From contig NZ_SMBP01000004.1 of assembly GCF_004341945.1 (NCBI RefSeq), forward strand, positions 62,001 through 126,000: 64,000 nt of DNA. The letters run 5' to 3'. The notes below the pieces were generated by a model, which saw only the letters and a list, made by a program, of their open reading frames with translations, was not told the origin of the DNA and did not search any database. Of this stretch, positions 18,174 through 42,432 are shown in pieces. The translations under genes were made by a program, and so were the position numbers. Within the stretch, counting starts at the first letter, position 1. Every line of letters starts with the position of its first letter. Origin of the DNA: Longicatena caecimuris. GTDB lineage: Bacteria > Bacillota_I > Bacilli_A > Erysipelotrichales > Erysipelotrichaceae.

Positions 18174-18371
18174 TTATTTGTCAAAAGCAGGATTATAACG
18201 ATAATAGTTGTCTGAATCTAATTGTTTTTGAACGTAAGCCAAAGCTTCACCAAATCGTTGGAAATGTACGATTTCTCTTTCGCGTAGGAAAACCAAAGGG
18301 GCTATGACATCTGGGTCACAGGCTTCCCGGATAAGGTTGTCATACGTTGTTCTGGCTTTTTGTTCTGCTGC
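18174..18371 (-). pseudogene. cotJC: cotJC, 3' part (codons 134-198), separated by the inserted element
   Basis: Read on the minus strand from 18371, this stretch encodes AAEQKARTTYDNLI followed by LREREIVHFQRFGEAL and ends NPAFDK-stop. That is the C-terminal part of the manganese-catalase-like spore coat protein CotJC, including the EREIVH metal-ligand motif. It has no start codon of its own. The first codons (GCA GCA GA) are the 8-bp repeat shared with the other end of the insertion. Joined to the 5' part at 24759-25157 it gives an uninterrupted 198-residue CotJC, close to the 189 residues of the Bacillus protein. It is intact apart from the separation, so it may be a split gene rather than a decayed one. 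Confidence 0.9.
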
Positions 18372-18390
18372 AACCTCATAAGAACAACAT
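18364..18390. other. Left attachment junction (attL)
   Basis: Core TCTGCTGC (18364-18371), followed inside the element by the arm TAAGAACAACAT (18379-18390). The arm is the inverted partner (10 of 12) of ATGTTGATCATA near the right end. The element's next 310 bp up to 18701 show no gene with a ribosome site. Confidence 0.7.
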
Positions 18391-18701
18391 AGGCCAAAAG
18401 CCTTATAAACACGCTGTTTTTTATTGTACAGGCTTTCCCTAGCTGCGATTGCATAAGGACAAAAAGTACATAATCTATATAATATAGAAGATAAAACAAA
18501 TTATCCTGCAAAAAATTTCATCGTTCAATCGTATGCAATCCAATCCTTAATATATGCCAAACAATATGACAACACGAATCTGCGATACGGTGGTAAAAGA
18601 ATAAAAGCCAGTGGGGTTGTCTATTTGCAACAATATTTCGTCTGGTAAGCTCGTATTTGCAAGCTCTACATGGTTGAAACAAGCCATCCTCCTTATACTG
18701 C

Positions 18702-20399
18702 CTACCGTTTTTCATACAACTGAAACTGCCCAATCATATGATCCAGCATCTGCGTCTGTGTAGAAAGCTCCTCGCTTGCGGCCGCCAGCTCCTCGGATAT
18801 CGAGGCATTATTCTGCACCACATCCGAAACCTGGCGCACCTCCGCTGTGATATTAGAAATGGATTTATGTTGATTTTCTGTGGCGGAAGCAATCCTATCC
18901 ACCATAAAAATCACCTGTTTTGTACACTCGATAACCTGCAGCAGCGAATCGGCCGCCGTGTGGGCAACCTTTTCTCCATTTTTTACTGCTGCCACCGATT
19001 CCTTGATCAGAGCTGTCGTGTTCTTGGAGGCCATTGCCGTCTTATCCGCTAGACTGCGTATTTCTCGCGCAATCACCGCAAATCCTGTTCCCAGTTCACC
19101 GACCCTTGCCGCCTCTACAGAGGCATTTAAGGCTAGTAAATTCGTTTCGAATGCAATATCCTGAATAGTCTTCACTATCTTGTAAATTTCATCGGACCTT
19201 TCACTGATGATGTTCATTGCACTAATCATTTCCTGCATCTGCTGGTTGCTCTCAGAAACCTGTGCGCCCGCACGGTCTGTCTGGTTGCGCGCTTTATCCG
19301 CGTTCTCCTTTGTTACCCTGACTTGCTCAGATATTTCATTTACAGCTATGGCAAGTTTTTCAATCGAATCGGCCTGTTCCTCTGCCCCGATCGCAAGGAT
19401 CTGCGCTCCTGAGGATACTTGTTCACTACCATTCGCCACTTGCCTTGCGGACTGGCTGATGCGCCAGAGGGTATCACTTAGTTTATCCCGCAGTCCCCAC
19501 ATCGACACTAGGATGCGGTCATAATGCCCCATGTAGTATTCATTGACATTGGATTGAACTTTAAAATTCCCCTCGGACATATCGCCAAGGATATCGCTGA
19601 TATCTTCAATAATCGTCTTTTGATAGCTGATTAAATCCCGTATACTATCCGACATCTTTCCCAGTTCATCTCTCGACGTATAGGAAACGCACACGCCGTC
19701 TAACTGACCGTTTGCCAACTGCTGGGCGGCATCCTCAATCTCCTTCACAGGCTTGCGGATGCTGTTGGAAATATAGATGCCAAGCAGTGCCGCAGACACG
19801 ATACTGAATGTCATGATGATCATGATAACAGTGATTGCCGATGCCTGCGCATATTCCCCTTCCTTCACCATATCCTGGGCGTTATGTGCCGCCACATCCG
19901 CGATCTGTTGGAGAAGATCCGCCATCTGATTCAGAACCGGAATATAACTGGACTTCATGACCTCGTATGCCTCATCCGTTTTCCCCGTTTCCACCAAAGC
20001 GAATACTTTGTCACGGTAGACGATGGCCTCCTGCAGCCGTTTATCCACCCTATCCACCATCGCGATGTCCCCTTTGAAGGAGTTACGGATTACGGGAAAT
20101 GTAGCGCGCATGTTTCTGAGGCTTTCCTTCGCCTTATCAATGTACTCCGCGGATTCTTCCACATCAGACTCCAATATGGCATTTAAGATATCCCCTCGTG
20201 CAGCCTGCATCTCCCTTTTCGCTAGCCACACATTGATCGTCACTGTATAATTATTACGATAAAAAGAGGAAAGATTATCGCCAATTCTATTCAGCATGAA
20301 TAGAGCAGCAATACTTGCCGACAGACATATTGCGATTACCATTGCATACGATAATAACAACCTAAACTTTAGTTTCATATTTCGTATTTTCTTCAACAT
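18702..20399 (-). CDS. Methyl-accepting chemotaxis protein (four-helix-bundle sensor)
   Basis: The 565-residue receptor has a membrane helix near residues 12-34 and a periplasmic/extracellular four-helix-bundle domain (about 35-185). A second helix (about 186-210), a HAMP domain with the NSIRKPVKEIEDAAQQLANG pattern, and a long coiled-coil signalling domain follow. The kinase-contact hairpin reads EAARVGELGTGFAVIAREIR. The GGGAGA site before ATG 20399 decides the start; the longer frame adds a run without family likeness. It is cargo of the cotJC element and G+C-rich relative to the host. No other motility or chemotaxis gene is in the window, so its partner kinase must be elsewhere or lacking. 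Confidence 0.9.
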   Translation of the reverse strand: MLKKIRNMKLKFRLLLSYAMVIAICLSASIAALFMLNRIGDNLSSFYRNNYTVTINVWLAKREMQAARGDILNAILESDVEESAEYIDKAKESLRNMRATFPVIRNSFKGDIAMVDRVDKRLQEAIVYRDKVFALVETGKTDEAYEVMKSSYIPVLNQMADLLQQIADVAAHNAQDMVKEGEYAQASAITVIMIIMTFSIVSAALLGIYISNSIRKPVKEIEDAAQQLANGQLDGVCVSYTSRDELGKMSDSIRDLISYQKTIIEDISDILGDMSEGNFKVQSNVNEYYMGHYDRILVSMWGLRDKLSDTLWRISQSARQVANGSEQVSSGAQILAIGAEEQADSIEKLAIAVNEISEQVRVTKENADKARNQTDRAGAQVSESNQQMQEMISAMNIISERSDEIYKIVKTIQDIAFETNLLALNASVEAARVGELGTGFAVIAREIRSLADKTAMASKNTTALIKESVAAVKNGEKVAHTAADSLLQVIECTKQVIFMVDRIASATENQHKSISNITAEVRQVSDVVQNNASISEELAAASEELSTQTQMLDHMIGQFQLYEKR

Positions 20400-20433
20400 A
20401 ATTTTCTCCCAACGATGATGATTCACATCACTC

Positions 20434-20803
20434 CTATAACAGTTTTGATATTTTTCTGTAAAGCACACCCACTTCAATCGGCTTCTTAATATAACTGTTC
20501 ATTCCTATCGCTTTCGCTTCGTGCACGCTTTCCCTTCGATCATGCCATGAGATAATAGAACCAACGCATACGCCTAAGCACTTTGCGGATCCGCTGAATT
20601 ACCTCGCTTCCATTAAATACGGTATTTTATTAATCATACATTGAATTACCGATCTTCTAATGGATCTTTAACACTGTTTGTATGGCCATAATGGCCTACT
20701 TCGTCGTTGCGATGGGCTTGTCAGTCTCCGCCTTTTCAAGCAGCATATGCGCATGGGCGCAGAAGCCTTCATCATCCGCGACCAGCATCTTGAGATTCTC
20801 CAT
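20434..20803 (-). pseudogene. Decayed response-regulator receiver domain
   Basis: On the minus strand, 20803 begins MENLKMLVADDEGF, the start of a CheY-like receiver with its acidic pocket. Near the other end the sequence reads AKAIGMNSYIKKPI followed by a short tail and stop at 20434, the end of a receiver domain. Between them stops and frame changes break the frame; the phospho-acceptor segment cannot be read. It lies between the GntR regulator and the chemotaxis receptor and suggests that these were once a signalling cassette. Confidence 0.75.
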
Positions 20804-20972
20804 GATGCCGCTGTCTGCTCAAATGGGATGAAGATATGTTGCTAGAATGTTTACTCATGCCAATCTCGTTATGCTTCCCTTGAAGACGAGCTTGGCTCTT
20901 TCATTTTTGACTGGCATTTAGCCCCAAATTCTCTCTTGTTTTACGTTGCACGAACCTTTTACACCACTGTCC

Positions 20973-22376
20973 TCATATCTGATCCTTAGGGTTTTCCAAT
21001 GAAAACCTTGTGCGTAAAAAGTCCAGTCTATCCTCAATAAACGCCTGCCAAGATTGTGCACACGCCGTCCAATGCTCCGCCATCATATCTGTTTCCAGCT
21101 GGGCGATAAAATCGTTCAAATCCATATGTGGCTGTTCACCAGAGCCTCTTAACACGGCAGAGAAAATATATCCCCATGCCATCAGCTCCCTCAACTTACC
21201 ATAGCACTCCCTCAAGAATACAGAGGGAACTTCAGTAGAGATAAACTTTAAGAGGACATCAATACACAGAATATCGTTATTTTTACCGTGAAATTTGCTG
21301 ATTTCCTGCAATAAAGCTTCTCTCTTTTCCGCGGTAATTGATTCCAAAGTAAAGAGAGTTACGTTATATATTGTCAAAAAGAGAAACTCCATTCCTTCCT
21401 TGTGCAGGGTCAAGTTCTCTTGCATTTCCCGCGTGTTAAGTATATACGGATTGATAGGCTCCATACATACCCGGGTCCCGACCCCCATGTAGGCTTTCGT
21501 CACCCCCAGTGAATGTAGTACATCCAGGGTCCGACGTACTGTGCTCAATGACACATGATACCGTTCTGCCATTTTAGGCAGGGACGGCAGATAGCTGCCA
21601 ACGGGATAGACCTCCCAGAAAATCTCTTGAATAATGGTGGAGGCAAGGGTATAGCGCACCTGCGGCCGTTTTCGATACATCGTCCATGTAAACGGAATCT
21701 GCGGCACATTTTTCAAGTGATGTTCCTCGGGAATGGAATCGACAAATGCCTTGACTTCCAGAAAGTTCTGATAGTAGTAAGCATCTGTTTCCGCCTTCAT
21801 GCGGTTGGCTATCTCAACTGACAAAAGACCATCTTCCATATAATTGACCATGCCGTACTCTTTATTGGGATAAAAATAATTGAGATAACGCAAGAATTGC
21901 CAGTATAGACTTTCCATTAAGCCATTGTTGAAAGTTCTCAGGACATCATAATACAATTTTGTTGGTTCCTCACTCAATATCCCAGTTGCATTTGTTTTCT
22001 TGTATAAACCTGCAGAGATACTCCGTTCTAAGTTTTTTAACCCCATCTCCCAGACCGTAGAAAATAGCAGAGCCCCTTGTTGATTAATATCTAGCATTCC
22101 ATCTCTGCGCGGAACAAAATACTTCATAGCATTTTCTATGAAGGTTTTCTCTGTCCCCTGGTACACGATTATGGCCATCTTCCGCTGTTCTGTTTTTATG
22201 TACCCAGCTGCCTCCAATTTGTCCAAAGCAGTCTGCACCGTATTTCGCGCCAGACCAAAGGAAGCACAAATCTGTGAAATTGATCTTAACTGGTCGCCAT
22301 ATTGGTACATGCCAAAAAGAATTCGCGATTCATAGTATTCGTAAATCAGCTCGCTAAGTACATTATCATTTGCCAT
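20973..22376 (-). CDS. Double winged-helix GntR-family transcriptional regulator
   Basis: The 467-residue regulator has two GntR-type DNA-binding domains. One is at the N-terminus (residues about 5-75, with RSISQICASFGLARNTVQTAL around the recognition helix). The second is in the middle (about 225-295, LPSLPKMAERYHVSLSTVRR). The rest is helical without a recognised ligand domain. ATG 22376 follows GGAGG at good spacing; the frame start at 22400 does not. It lies upstream of, and co-oriented with, the decayed response regulator and the chemotaxis receptor. Two half-proteins in one chain could bind DNA as an internal dimer (inference). Confidence 0.85.
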   Translation of the reverse strand: MANDNVLSELIYEYYESRILFGMYQYGDQLRSISQICASFGLARNTVQTALDKLEAAGYIKTEQRKMAIIVYQGTEKTFIENAMKYFVPRRDGMLDINQQGALLFSTVWEMGLKNLERSISAGLYKKTNATGILSEEPTKLYYDVLRTFNNGLMESLYWQFLRYLNYFYPNKEYGMVNYMEDGLLSVEIANRMKAETDAYYYQNFLEVKAFVDSIPEEHHLKNVPQIPFTWTMYRKRPQVRYTLASTIIQEIFWEVYPVGSYLPSLPKMAERYHVSLSTVRRTLDVLHSLGVTKAYMGVGTRVCMEPINPYILNTREMQENLTLHKEGMEFLFLTIYNVTLFTLESITAEKREALLQEISKFHGKNNDILCIDVLLKFISTEVPSVFLRECYGKLRELMAWGYIFSAVLRGSGEQPHMDLNDFIAQLETDMMAEHWTACAQSWQAFIEDRLDFLRTRFSLENPKDQI

Positions 22377-22484
22377 TTCTGTCCTCCAGCAGGGGGACAC
22401 CTGCTCTTATGTGTTTACCGTTCCTTGGTGATTTTCAGCGAAGCAATAAATTATTAGTTTATTTTTTATCTCTCTGCTCATATT

Positions 22485-22513
22485 AGGGTAACCCTGTTCA
22501 TGTTGGTACTAAC
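22485..22513. promoter_or_regulatory. Candidate operator region upstream of the GntR gene
   Basis: Two dyads sit about 110-135 bp upstream of the gene: AGGGTAACCCT (22485-22495) and GTTGGTACTAAC (22502-22513, palindromic at 10 of 12). A TATACT-like -10 for the minus strand lies just beyond (near 22516-22525). Autoregulation is inferred. The rest of the 22377-22873 gap shows no gene that I can support. Confidence 0.45.
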
Positions 22514-22873
22514 TTAAGTATAGCACGCTTCCTACGAGCACGCAATGAATATTTCATTTGTATCTGGGACTTTTAAGGGATCTCATTTCCACCTCTGCGA
22601 ATATAGAGCAGGGACAAAACGCAAATTATACAATTATAAAATTCGCACTTGGAGTTAAAGCGTTTCATATGCTGAAAGAAGATTGCGGCTATGTTCTATA
22701 TATCAGCATACTGATACACTCGTCTAATACGCATCATCCATCACACTGGAAATGGTGAGCGTCCCATGGAGCTTTCTAAAGCCATCTGATTCCTTCATAT
22801 GAATAGATAACTTATTTCATTATGTACAAGCATTTTTGGATACTTTTTAAATATAGTGTAGTGAGGTGGTTTC

Positions 22874-23020
22874 ATGGCAAATGATGTTAAAGTAGTTTGC
22901 AAGAATGTTTTTAAAAATAGTGATACAGCGGCTCTGCAGAAAGTGTTTACTATGAAATGGATAGAATTGATAAACCAATTTGAAAAAAGTAAGGGGCACT
23001 CTACCCCTGCGAGTTGTTAA
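22874..23020 (+). CDS. Small recombinase-associated protein (48 aa)
   Basis: This ORF reads MANDVKVVCKNVFKN... with the core FTMKWIELINQFEKSKG and ends ASC. It has a ribosome site (GTGAGGTGG). Short proteins with a similar xFTxKWIxLIN core are, to my recollection, common just upstream of serine recombinases in clostridial elements. That comparison is from memory, not from a search. No function is assigned. It lies 78 bp upstream of the recombinase and is co-oriented with it. Confidence 0.6.
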   Translation: MANDVKVVCKNVFKNSDTAALQKVFTMKWIELINQFEKSKGHSTPASC

Positions 23021-23071
23021 ACAAGCGATTCTGCAAAGTGTTATCATAACATAAGCAGTGATCGTTTGTTT
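23019..23071 (+). repeat. Inverted repeat in the recombinase leader
   Basis: AAACAAGCGATTCTGC (23019-23034) pairs imperfectly with GCAGTGATCGTTTGTTT (23055-23071). The loop carries no T-run; the repeat may control recombinase expression. Confidence 0.5.
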
Positions 23072-23098
23072 TGCCATCTTTGAAAAGGAGAACAAAAC

Positions 23099-24667
23099 AT
23101 GATGAATACGTCAAGGGTTGCGATATATTGCCGCTTATCCGAAGAAGATAGAAACAAACAATCAGAAACAGATGACAGTAACAGTATTCAAAATCAAAAG
23201 TCTATGCTGCTTCAATATGCTTTAGAACAAGGGTGGGAGGTCTACAATATTTACAGTGATGATGATTACACTGGCTCTGACCGACGACGACCAGAGTTCA
23301 ACAAGTTACTGAATGACGCAAAAGACCGTAAATTTGATATTGTCTTATGTAAGACGCAATCCAGATTTACCAGGGAGCTTGAATTGGTAGAAAAGTATAT
23401 CCACGGTCTATTTCCCATTTGGGGTATTCGCTTTATTAGTATAGTTGATAATGCGGATACCGCAAATAAAGGAAATAAGAAATCAAGACAGATCAACGGA
23501 TTGGTGAATGAATGGTACTTGGAGGATATGTCGGAGAACATCAAGAGTGTGCTGACAGATCTAAGAAAAAACGGTCGTCACATTGGAGCATTTGCTCTCT
23601 TTGGTTATAAAAAAGACCCTAATATAAAAGGACACTTGATTATTGATGAAGAAGCTGCACAGGTTGTCAGAGAAGTTTTTACTCTGTTTTCACAAGGCTA
23701 TGGAAAAACTGCCATTGCCCGCATGCTGAATGATCGAGGTATTCCCAACCCAACGGAATACAAGCGGCTTCATGGTTTACGCTGTCGAACACCCAAAGGC
23801 AAGAACAGTACCTTATGGAAATATTATGCTATTTCCGATATGCTGGTAAATGAAGTTTATATTGGCAATATGGTACAGGGCAAATATGGGAGTGTATCCT
23901 ACAAGACAAAGCAAAATAAGCCACGTCCGAAAAGTGAGTGGTACATTGTCGAGGGTACGCACGAACCGATCATTGACCGTGAATTGTGGGATAAGGTACA
24001 GGTGTTGATAGCTCAAAAGGCAAAGCCATTTACAGCAGGTACGATTGGGTTATTTGCCAAAAAAGCCCGCTGTATGAACTGCGGTTATGTTATGCGTTCT
24101 AATAAACAGTCTGATGGCAGACGATATTTAGGGTGTTCTAGCCGACACGTTTCTAAGAATGCTTGTGTTGGTTCTTTCATTTCTGTACCTAAGTTGGAAC
24201 AGGCGGTGATTACAGAAATCAATAAGCTGTCTGCCGCATATCTGGATAAAGATGAACTGGAACAAAGTGTAATCTTTAACAGTGATGTAAGAGGAAAACA
24301 GAAGGCTCTGAAAGAGGAAATAGCCGCGTATCAAAGTAAGATTGGAGAATATACCAAAGGTATTCGTGAGTTGTATTTAGATAAGGTTAAGGGTATCTTG
24401 TCAGAGCAGGACTATTTGGACTTATCCAAAGACTTCTCAACTCAAAAGGAAAGGTTAGAAAAACTGGTGATTGATACGCAAAAACAGCTTGACATTATGG
24501 AAAGAAAGATACAAGCTGGTGATAACAAACGCCAGTTAATTGAGCAATATACCAATCTTGAACATTTAAACAGGGAAATCGTTGATAAGCTGATTGACTA
24601 TATAGAAGTTGGAAAAAAAGACCCTGTCACAAAAGAAGTACCTATTGAAATACATTGGAATTTCTAA
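23099..24667 (+). CDS. Large serine recombinase (integrase/excisionase of the element)
   Basis: The 522-residue recombinase has an N-terminal resolvase domain with the nucleophile Ser14 in YCRLSEED, followed by YSDDDYTGSDRRRPEF and the SRFTRE motif near residues 88-93. A Recombinase domain (about 165-300) follows, then a zinc ribbon with Cys325, Cys328, Cys346 and Cys356. A coiled coil (about 395-490) completes the typical large-serine-recombinase layout. Length is at the short end of the family. Start: AAAAGGAG lies before a double ATG (23099/23102). The gene lies next to the right attachment site, as expected for such integrases. A separate recombination directionality factor was not recognised. 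Confidence 0.95.
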   Translation: MMNTSRVAIYCRLSEEDRNKQSETDDSNSIQNQKSMLLQYALEQGWEVYNIYSDDDYTGSDRRRPEFNKLLNDAKDRKFDIVLCKTQSRFTRELELVEKYIHGLFPIWGIRFISIVDNADTANKGNKKSRQINGLVNEWYLEDMSENIKSVLTDLRKNGRHIGAFALFGYKKDPNIKGHLIIDEEAAQVVREVFTLFSQGYGKTAIARMLNDRGIPNPTEYKRLHGLRCRTPKGKNSTLWKYYAISDMLVNEVYIGNMVQGKYGSVSYKTKQNKPRPKSEWYIVEGTHEPIIDRELWDKVQVLIAQKAKPFTAGTIGLFAKKARCMNCGYVMRSNKQSDGRRYLGCSSRHVSKNACVGSFISVPKLEQAVITEINKLSAAYLDKDELEQSVIFNSDVRGKQKALKEEIAAYQSKIGEYTKGIRELYLDKVKGILSEQDYLDLSKDFSTQKERLEKLVIDTQKQLDIMERKIQAGDNKRQLIEQYTNLEHLNREIVDKLIDYIEVGKKDPVTKEVPIEIHWNF

Positions 24668-24722
24668 ATTCTTATAAGCTGGCAGCGGGTATGCCTGATT
24701 ATCGCAAACACCACTTATACAG

Positions 24723-25157
24723 TCAATGTTGATCATACAAAGCGGCACCATCTGCTGCCATGTCTTCCATCAAGTCTGTGATAGGGTCACCTTTTGATTG
24801 GAAGTAAGTTGAAGTAAATGGAGCACCACTTGCTGCTTGTGGCCAGATACCAGTTGTATGATCGACATAGTAAGCATCAAAACCGGCTTTTTTAATTTCA
24901 TCTACACTAAGATTGCGTGTTAGTTGATAGACGATGGCTGAAACCATTTCCAGATGAGCTAATTCTTCCGTTCCAATATCGGTCAACATCGCTTTCACTC
25001 GATCATAAGGCATTGCATATCGCTGATTCAAATAACGCATGGAAGCACTCAATTCACCATCTGGACCTCCAATTTGCGTAATGACAATTTTCGCAAAAGA
25101 TGGATCCGGATGTTCTATCTGAACAGGAAACTGTAATTTCTTTTCATATACCCACAT
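24723..25157 (-). pseudogene. cotJC: cotJC, 5' part (codons 1-133 plus a short read-through into the element)
   Basis: The reading frame starts MWVYEKKLQFPV and follows the CotJC manganese-catalase-like family (GGPDGELSASMRYLNQRY, TDIGTEELAHLEMV with metal-ligand Glu/His). It reaches MEDM at codon 133. At 24758 it enters the element and stops after 11 more codons (AADGAALYDQH). As it stands the protein lacks the C-terminal helices and half of the di-metal ligands, so it should be inactive. It becomes whole only if the element is removed. It is the third gene of the cotJABC coat operon; cotJB ends 2 bp upstream. Confidence 0.92.
24726..24758. other. Right attachment junction (attR)
   Basis: Inside the element ATGTTGATCATA (24726-24737) is followed by a 13-bp gap and the core TCTGCTGC (24751-24758), which is the coding sequence of cotJC on the minus strand. 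Together with the left arm, the dyad centre falls on the first two core bases (TC, i.e. GA in cotJC orientation). Confidence 0.7.
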
Positions 25158-25159
25158 AC

Positions 25160-25402
25160 TTACTTATCTCCTTCCCATGGCCATTTACCATGTATATATT
25201 CCCATGAACAGCTATTATTCTCACGGTTTGTTAATGGGCCATGCAAGGCTTCATATTCTTCTCTCGCCTGTTTACTGCAACATTGCATTGTGCGATAGTA
25301 CGATAAAGCTTCTTTATCGTGCGGATGAGAATTTAGAAAAAGAGCAGCTTCCTGCAGAGCAAAATCATACATTTGTAACTGTGTTAAAACATCATCATGC
25401 AT
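25160..25402 (-). CDS. cotJB: Spore coat protein CotJB
   Basis: The 80-residue protein matches the CotJB layout: a helical start around LTQLQMYDFALQEAALFLNSHP, the YYRTM segment and a C-terminal GPLT...W.W region with the PWPW-like ending WPWEGDK. CotJB is a small coat component that acts with CotJA and CotJC under mother-cell control in Bacillus. It is preceded by an AAGGAGG site and lies between cotJA and cotJC. Confidence 0.9.
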   Translation of the reverse strand: MHDDVLTQLQMYDFALQEAALFLNSHPHDKEALSYYRTMQCCSKQAREEYEALHGPLTNRENNSCSWEYIHGKWPWEGDK

Positions 25403-25421: not shown

Positions 25422-25610
25422 TTATTGTCGAAATGGTTTGTTTAAATCATAGAATATTGTGCCACTGCAAAATCCTTTTTCCAATGGCATTGGCATACTC
25501 CATTTTTGCATTGGAACATAAGCCATACCTACCACCTGTCTACGGTGTGTAGATAAATTTGTACATACTTCAGAAGGTAAACCATAATCATTCTGTATAT
25601 TGTTTTGCAT
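25422..25610 (-). CDS. cotJA: Spore coat-associated protein CotJA
   Basis: A 62-residue protein with the family core MAYVPMQKW followed by LEKGFCSGTIFYDLNKPF, the usual CotJA pattern (AYVPxQxW...GTIFPxLxxPF). The start is ATG 25610, 8 nt after AAGGAGG; the longer frame start (GTG 25619) lies in the ribosome site. It is the first gene of cotJABC. No clear sigma-E or sigma-K promoter could be read upstream. Confidence 0.88.
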   Translation of the reverse strand: MQNNIQNDYGLPSEVCTNLSTHRRQVVGMAYVPMQKWSMPMPLEKGFCSGTIFYDLNKPFRQ

Positions 25611-25729
25611 AGATGTCACCTCCTTTCTTTCTATACTATTTCATAAGAGAAAAAACTTGTAGATATATAACCTGTCAAAAGGAAAGCAATAGAATATTAG
25701 CAAAAACAGCAGATTAGACTTAATTTTCA

Positions 25730-41778: not shown

Positions 41779-42432
41779 TCATAAGCCTTTATATTTCTTA
41801 AATTGTTTGCGGCATAGTATATGATAGAAAATTGAAATAGCACCTATGACACATAAGATGATACATAGCGCTAAGAAAGAGATGGTGATAGTTCCGGTAT
41901 AGTGTGTATTTGCCCAAAGCATGATACCTATATAGCAAACAGCATAAATAATTATATAGATGATCCAACTATATTCTTTAAAACGCAAAACAGTGCGGCC
42001 TTGTGCAAAATCAGCTAATAAAATGGCAGCAGATACGGCAAGAGCGGTACAGAAATCATTTACAGTAAAGGTAAATGTATAGTGTGTGAAAGAAATAGAT
42101 GTCGTATCATCAAGACCTATCAAAGACAAAAGCAAGATCATGATAAAGAAGATGAAGATAGCACCGGAAAAGATGTATAATAAACGCAAAATATGTTCTA
42201 GCATGGTTTCTTTTACAGCATTTTCGCTGATTTGATTGCAGAACTCTTCAAGATCACCGAAAGCTTCTTCTGTTGGGATGTCACGTTGTTGATTATCCAA
42301 GGCTAAGGCGAGCACATCGTCAAGAATATCACGGAATACAGTATTGCTGATATGACGAGAGGATAAATTACGAGCAATCTTTGTATATACTTTTTTATAA
42401 TCGTGGTGCAGATCTTTTACTTTATTTTTCAT
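41779..42432 (-). CDS. DUF1048-like membrane protein, third of three paralogues
   Basis: The 217-residue protein has an N-terminal cytoplasmic helical domain (about 1-75; motifs ILDDVLALALDNQQRD and AFGDLEEFCNQISENAV) and four membrane helices (about 90-110, 125-145, 155-175 and 180-205). The soluble part resembles DUF1048 by the pattern ILxDxLxLxxxGxxxGxxxEExxGxxxxxFCxE; this comparison is from memory. It is the last gene of a PadR-controlled operon. The start has GGAGGTG upstream. Function unknown. Confidence 0.75.
   Translation of the reverse strand: MKNKVKDLHHDYKKVYTKIARNLSSRHISNTVFRDILDDVLALALDNQQRDIPTEEAFGDLEEFCNQISENAVKETMLEHILRLLYIFSGAIFIFFIMILLLSLIGLDDTTSISFTHYTFTFTVNDFCTALAVSAAILLADFAQGRTVLRFKEYSWIIYIIIYAVCYIGIMLWANTHYTGTITISFLALCIILCVIGAISIFYHILCRKQFKKYKGL

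Follow-up and report, generated by a model that had tools for sequence, protein, structure and literature searches.

Large serine recombinase elements split the spore-coat gene cotJC at a recurrent codon in gut spore-formers and are probably excised during sporulation

Introduction

Known sporulation gene-intervening elements amount to a handful, mostly in Bacillus and Clostridium, and the targets named in the literature searched are sigK, spoVFB, spoVR, spsM, gerE, kamA and yabG. In the skin element within C. difficile sigK, the large serine recombinase (LSR) is CD1231 and the recombination directionality factor (RDF) is CD1234, a protein of 72 aa (PMC5025042). Here we analyze a 64,000-nucleotide stretch of the Longicatena caecimuris genome (hereafter the window) in which an LSR element splits cotJC, a spore-coat gene known from Bacillus to be expressed in the mother cell.

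The C. difficile skin is alike in that an LSR element divides a mother-cell gene of an anaerobic spore-former, with exact re-joining; it may also be alike in its small RDF with a sigma-E promoter, the function of the corresponding window ORF being inferred and its promoter-like block altered. Its target is a regulator, whereas the window element lies in the gene of a coat enzyme; its RDF is not recognizably related to the window small ORF and is encoded apart from an LSR expressed from sigma-A, while in the window the small ORF directly precedes the LSR. The B. cereus gin element in gerE (GirC, GirX; PMC5595907) is similarly non-prophage-like, with an LSR, a short direct repeat at its ends and a restored frame, and its tiny RDF (GirX, 42 aa) may have a counterpart in the window small ORF, but it contains three serine recombinases and 31 genes, has one known target site, and its excision has been demonstrated. 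The C. botulinum yin element in yabG (PMC10747680) likewise places an LSR inside a gene for coat assembly in a spore-forming clostridium; it is a complete prophage reportedly unique to one strain, whereas the cotJC elements occur in dozens of species and, among the copies examined, are mostly not prophage-like. In B. subtilis, SP-beta/spsM and skin (SprA/SprB, SpoIVCA/Skr; PMC4191935, PMC6957869) have an attL-rdf-int-attR unit that rebuilds a mother-cell gene, an arrangement inferred for our locus too, but LSR similarity is low and the genes and hosts are others. Finally, phi027 of C. difficile R20291 adjoins a CotJC/manganese-catalase homologue, CDR20291_1465 (PMC11222575), which was described as an adjacent gene only, without any proposal of splitting or re-joining.

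By analogy, the cotJC system likely works as skin, gin, vfbin, yin and SP-beta/spsM do, through an LSR element that sits in a gene used only by the mother cell and is re-joined by excision. A first-pass annotation of the window had named no earlier case of an interrupted cotJC, and we found no direct description in the literature searched; as most subscription papers lay outside that search, the novelty of cotJC as a target is provisional. The system stands out by its scale, with a single gene targeted by four LSR families, sometimes interrupted twice, and widely affected across hosts.

cotJC is split within one codon by an element with an intact recombinase

In the window, cotJC lies on the minus strand and is interrupted within codon 136, where an element of 6,387 bp lies between two copies of GCAGCAGA. 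The relevant features are as follows.

18174–18371, minus strand: cotJC 3' part, from the remainder of codon 136 to the stop, including the repeat at 18364–18371 (profile match); beyond GA, the coding part occupies 18363 to 18174, where the stop codon lies
18364–18371, minus strand: repeat GCAGCAGA on the cotJC 3' side, probable crossover core GA at 18364–18365
18366–18400, minus strand: element-side attachment arm beside the cotJC 3' part, ATGTTGTTCTTATGAGGTTGCAGCA in cotJC sense, conserved among relatives
18702–20402, minus strand: cargo methyl-accepting chemotaxis protein, 566 aa (domain search)
20973–22373, minus strand: cargo GntR-type regulator, 466 aa, in which two regions are winged-helix (domain search)
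22817–22846, plus strand: sigma-E-like promoter block TCATTAT-N15-GATACTTT; relatives read TCATAAT-N15-CATACTTT
22874–23020, plus strand: 48-aa ORF, candidate RDF, conserved before the LSR, function inferred
23099–24667, plus strand: LSR, 522 aa, proposed integrase/excisionase (Pfam domains)
24726–24750, minus strand: element-side attachment arm beside the cotJC 5' part, TGGTGCCGCTTTGTATGATCAACAT in cotJC sense, conserved among relatives
24751–24758, minus strand: repeat GCAGCAGA on the cotJC 5' side, probable crossover core GA at 24751–24752
24751–25157, minus strand: cotJC 5' part, codons 1–135 and the initial GA of codon 136 (open frame, Pfam)
25160–25402, minus strand: cotJB, intact, upstream in the host operon (CotJB, E 2e-24)
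25422–25619, minus strand: cotJA, intact, upstream in the host operon (CotJA, E 3e-15)

The split gene was identified as cotJC by Pfam (Mn_catalase in the N part, E 3e-39) and by its cotJA/cotJB operon context. The first-pass annotation had reported an 8-bp repeat at both element ends, and TCTGCTGC on the plus strand is indeed found at exactly 18364 and 24751; a further reverse-complement copy at 42026 is unrelated. Its claim that joining the flanks gives an unbroken 198-residue CotJC also held, in one frame on the minus strand. Its placement of the join between codons 133 and 134 held only in part, because conservation across loci puts the probable crossover at GA, which lies within codon 136 at the opposite end of the same repeat.

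A genome-wide profile search of the host assembly (2.95 Mb, 45 contigs) recovered both CotJC parts and no intact CotJC orthologue, just paralogues about 38% identical or weaker. Relatives of the same family and order have an uninterrupted cotJC, providing the empty site that the first-pass annotation had proposed to look for; the nearest, in G006, is 198 aa long and 85% identical.

The annotation of a serine-recombinase element held as well, since the LSR is both intact and constrained. It comprises Resolvase, Recombinase, Zn-ribbon and DUF4368 domains (PF00239, PF07508 and PF13408 above cut-off), its YCRLS motif has the expected catalytic serine near the N terminus, and dN/dS against the Faecalicatena copy is 0.066. 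The closest LSR of solved structure is SprA (YokA). We found no structural phage genes in the window element, whose content is the chemotaxis receptor, the GntR-type regulator, the small ORF and the LSR. The receptor and regulator have a G+C content of 47% and 43%, against 34–36% in the flanks, and are absent from the other elements fetched; in nucleotide comparisons, what those elements have in common is confined to the final 2.1 kb, which holds the promoter region, small ORF, LSR and attachment arm. The window cargo is partly decayed: between the two cargo genes, at 20403–20972, lies an apparent response-regulator receiver-domain remnant with broken frames. A second, distant LSR (32% identical; L006, G000:C4:158027-159520) is located about 70 kb away on the same contig and adjoins a DnaC-like gene.

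Attachment sites point to a GA core in the Glu136 codon

Across loci, the usual N-side junction reads GAYATGGCAGCA-GA-TGGTGCAATCATATAAGAACAACTT and the usual C-side junction AAGTTGTTCTTATATGATTGCAGCA-GA-RCAAAAAGC, and the shared, frame-restoring core is likely GA, with which the Glu136 codon begins. Joined at GA, every locus that has both halves (17/17) gives a continuous frame on one strand. In several relatives the two element arms make up an inverted repeat that is nearly perfect; the window arms match less well (17/25 positions), and such inverted-repeat arms are what an LSR attP should look like. The orientation of the LSR varies: in 22 copies its 3' end points towards the N-half, in 48 towards the C-half, and on the LSR tree parsimony requires at least nine switches, two of them forced by well-supported branches.

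We mapped metal ligands by comparing the spacing of E136–H169 and E65–H68 with the known ligands in the manganese catalase of Lactobacillus (1jku, matched by profile). On this spacing Glu136 may be a metal ligand, an inference from what is generally known of that enzyme; if so, neither half would contain a complete metal site before excision.

The same break recurs in distantly related hosts

An alignment of the window LSR and the G052 LSR was searched against named genomes, and 80 loci with 72–95% LSR identity were retained, a lower bound, the family being larger. In 74 of the 80, cotJC pieces broken at codon 133–136 accompany the LSR, mostly a few hundred bases from its end, and in one more (L058) the C-half lies on the same contig behind a second element. 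At three loci (L052, L094, L110) the contig stops no more than about 100 bases from the LSR, and in two (L046, L091) the element is located elsewhere and not in cotJC. Hosts include Lachnospiraceae, Oscillospiraceae, Anaerotignaceae and Erysipelotrichaceae, and in the genomes behind the loci the cotJC pieces are collinear and open, often without an intact copy. Because the same break is found in dozens of independent genomes, a chance origin is excluded.

The LSR module has clearly been transferred between distant hosts. LSR relatives 90–97% identical occur in unrelated hosts, the window module shares 90% DNA identity with that of Faecalicatena, and L049 and L050 are 98% identical across 12 kb. 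Some insertions are therefore recent, and their intact halves carry little information. No phage match to the window LSR exceeded 60% identity, and a plasmid collection gave one match, at 67% (OY725852).

One of the two loci outside cotJC belongs to Holdemanella biformis, in which an LSR 85% identical to that of the window sits in an element inside an apparent PTS IID gene (L046, after 11563). That genome gave no cotJC match, and the site could possibly be a secondary target used where the normal one is missing.

Interrupted cotJC is under purifying selection in relatives

The first-pass annotation had held that neither half has decayed, and this was borne out: stop codons are absent from codons 137–176 (69 loci) and from codons 66–132 (47 loci), sets that include some uninterrupted comparison genes. 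We counted substitutions by Nei-Gojobori, and the sharpest test comes from pairs that share a homologous element. In cotJC, dS and dN were 0.51 and 0.015 for L082/L097 (P 8e-26 against neutrality), 0.22 and 0.007 for L108/L112 (P 1e-9), and 0.20 and 0 for L089/L092 (P 8e-6), and dN/dS between relatives with a shared element is about 0.03. A gene inactive over that divergence would not retain such a pattern. Together, the lack of stops in the analyzed stretches and this ratio indicate that the interrupted gene still works, and excision would explain this most simply. The grounds named beforehand for refuting the idea, frameshifts together with relaxed selection among relatives, were tested for and did not apply.

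Re-insertion after divergence is not excluded for each pair, and in L108/L112 the LSR dS is 0.69, above that of cotJC, though neighboring cargo is about 95% identical. The window cotJC and its G006 counterpart are close to saturation at synonymous sites, so that recent insertion cannot be distinguished there from continued function.

A small ORF and, in most copies, a sigma-E-like promoter precede the recombinase

Upstream of the LSR, a small ORF of 41–56 aa is present in 77 of the 82 copies compared, with a conserved core of C-x3-F-K ... FTxKWIELIN-x2-EK-x-K. Its size is comparable to that of known factors (GirX, 42 aa; CD1234, 72 aa), but no sequence or fold relation to known RDFs was detected, and a fold model gave a single helix of moderate confidence without a PDB match.

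The sequence before the small ORF contains ATA-N17-CATA in 56 of 76 copies, compared with 1.1 in shuffles (maximum 4 in 200). As the loci are related, this count cannot be used as a probability; two deep clades, however, both have the motif while their remaining upstream sequence is different. As a check we used spoIVA, a gene controlled by sigma-E in B. subtilis. It is present in all 20 carriers tested, and ATA-N16..18-CATA precedes it in 10/20 against 1.55 expected. At the cotJ operon the same motif is not enriched (6/40 vs 4.7 expected), and no shared promoter motif was found there. Relative to L042 and L138, the window block has ATT for ATA and GATA for CATA, and with these key positions altered, activity in the window genome is open to more doubt than across the family.

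The promoter spacer (22824–22838 in the window) contains words resembling GTACAAGC, GGACTTGC or GTACTTGC, and the same words are seen upstream of LSRs at other cotJC sites (L065, L119, L134). They may conceivably mark the site of a shared regulator such as SpoIIID.

A model of programmed excision and its alternatives

In the model we propose, the LSR would insert the element, a site-specific mobile element, at the Glu136 codon of cotJC, and during sporulation would excise it at the GA core, restoring the gene exactly. The 48-aa protein would probably assist as directionality factor, and sigma-E would switch excision on in the mother cell. The coat catalase would then be made in a cell that is doomed anyway, while the spore chromosome would retain the element.

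Programmed excision is likely the best explanation of the data (probability roughly 0.78). The data show a split in exact frame that returns at one codon in many genomes, a conserved LSR and small-ORF module with dyad-symmetric arms, purifying selection on interrupted cotJC and, in most relatives, a sigma-E-like promoter; excision, its confinement to the mother cell, the role of the small ORF as RDF and the activity of the window copy are all inferred. The suggestion in the first-pass annotation of a programmed rearrangement rather than damage is thus supported by sequence tests, through the exact-frame split in many genomes, selection, the LSR, a partner gene of RDF size and the promoter found in most relatives, with excision itself unobserved. 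For the family we regard the reading as likely; for the window's own strain we lean only modestly towards it, because the promoter-like block is altered and the attachment dyad imperfect.

The main alternative is plain insertion damage, in which cotJC is merely a conserved landing site, the gene is lost, paralogues compensate and the halves remain intact through recency. In its favor, the module moves between distant hosts (90% DNA identity with Faecalicatena; 98% over 12 kb between L049 and L050), the window genome encodes CotJC paralogues and the window promoter-like block is altered. Against it stand the purifying selection in shared-element pairs and the absence of stop codons, a frame that is always exact and the convergence of four LSR families on one gene, and we consider damage unlikely. 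An artefact of assembly fusing unrelated pieces could be imagined for a draft of 45 contigs, but many independent genomes, cultured isolates included, show the identical break next to this LSR, and this recurrence all but excludes it.

Excision might instead be unregulated or phase-variable, with low-rate exit and re-entry in growing cells and an intact minority maintaining cotJC without any sporulation programme. The C. botulinum yin is excised in part of the population at all time points (PMC10747680), which lends this view some support. However, most relatives have the sigma-E-like motif upstream of the small ORF, and since cotJC is needed only in sporulation, selection would favor timed excision; we judge the unregulated alternative very unlikely and retain programmed excision.

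No circular element or joined state was found in the L058 contig, OY725852 or viral contigs, and the last of these contained no attP patterns when searched with exact patterns only. An attP-like junction at L058 was rejected as a circle: its contig, G601:C22, is a tandem two-element array whose ends do not overlap. In that contig (L058, L136, L137), the codon-136 site is occupied by two related elements in a row, and the C-half of cotJC follows the second. The 'plasmid' OY725852.1 (L147) was likewise rejected as an excised circle, as it holds the C-half of cotJC along with genes of an ordinary chromosomal kind. Its record is labelled as a circular plasmid from Subdoligranulum variabile, but it resembles a chromosomal contig in which the C-half adjoins the 67%-identical LSR.

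Further insertion sites and double interruption of cotJC

Profile searches revealed cotJC cut near codon 65 in G024 and near codon 28 in G275, and in all three further sites were identified, at codons ~28, ~65 and ~176 (L122-L134, L038, L065, L119). An LSR was found at all four cotJC sites, each with its own LSR family: identity is 42–77% within a site (one codon-28 outlier excepted) and at most 32% between sites. The smallest elements, of about 2 kb, contain little beyond the LSR (L122, L134). With cotJC cut at codon 136 or at three others in many gut spore-formers, re-joining at the DNA level in sporulation is probable.

Some genomes have more than one break. In 7 of the 24 genomes behind the loci (G337, G339, G343, G344, G351, G353 and G356, the last with L099), cotJC is cut at codons 65 and 134–136 with all pieces open, and two breaks also occur in L119 (136 and 176) and L065 (28 and 136). 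A gene cut twice in one genome would need two excisions. Among 248 sampled Lachnospiraceae, 156 had a cotJC match, of which about 53, or about a third, had no full-length copy; the figure of 53 is approximate, the matches being incomplete, some assignments ambiguous and part of the count attributable to breaks between contigs. Split cotJC is rarer in the Bacilli sample.

A bolder reading, which we consider likely as a whole, is that cotJC is a docking gene for at least four LSR families, every one directed at its own conserved block of codons (~28, 65, 136 and 176), that a large share of gut Lachnospiraceae and their relatives have cotJC only in pieces that are DNA-spliced in the mother cell, and that some species need two independent excisions from this one gene. 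That one coat gene is interrupted repeatedly, at four codons and across dozens of gut species, would mean that a seeming oddity is widespread among anaerobic spore-formers of the gut. The loci offer a natural series for studying how LSRs choose host genes needed by the dying cell alone, how directionality factors appear and how a gene is put back together after two DNA-level insertions; they also supply many LSRs whose attachment sites can be read.

In the annotation of many gut genomes, cotJC is likely to appear truncated or to be absent. LSRs with cotJC fragments beginning near codon 61–64 also occur in three IMG/VR contigs (L138, L139, L140); parts of interrupted genes have therefore been binned as viral in such collections.
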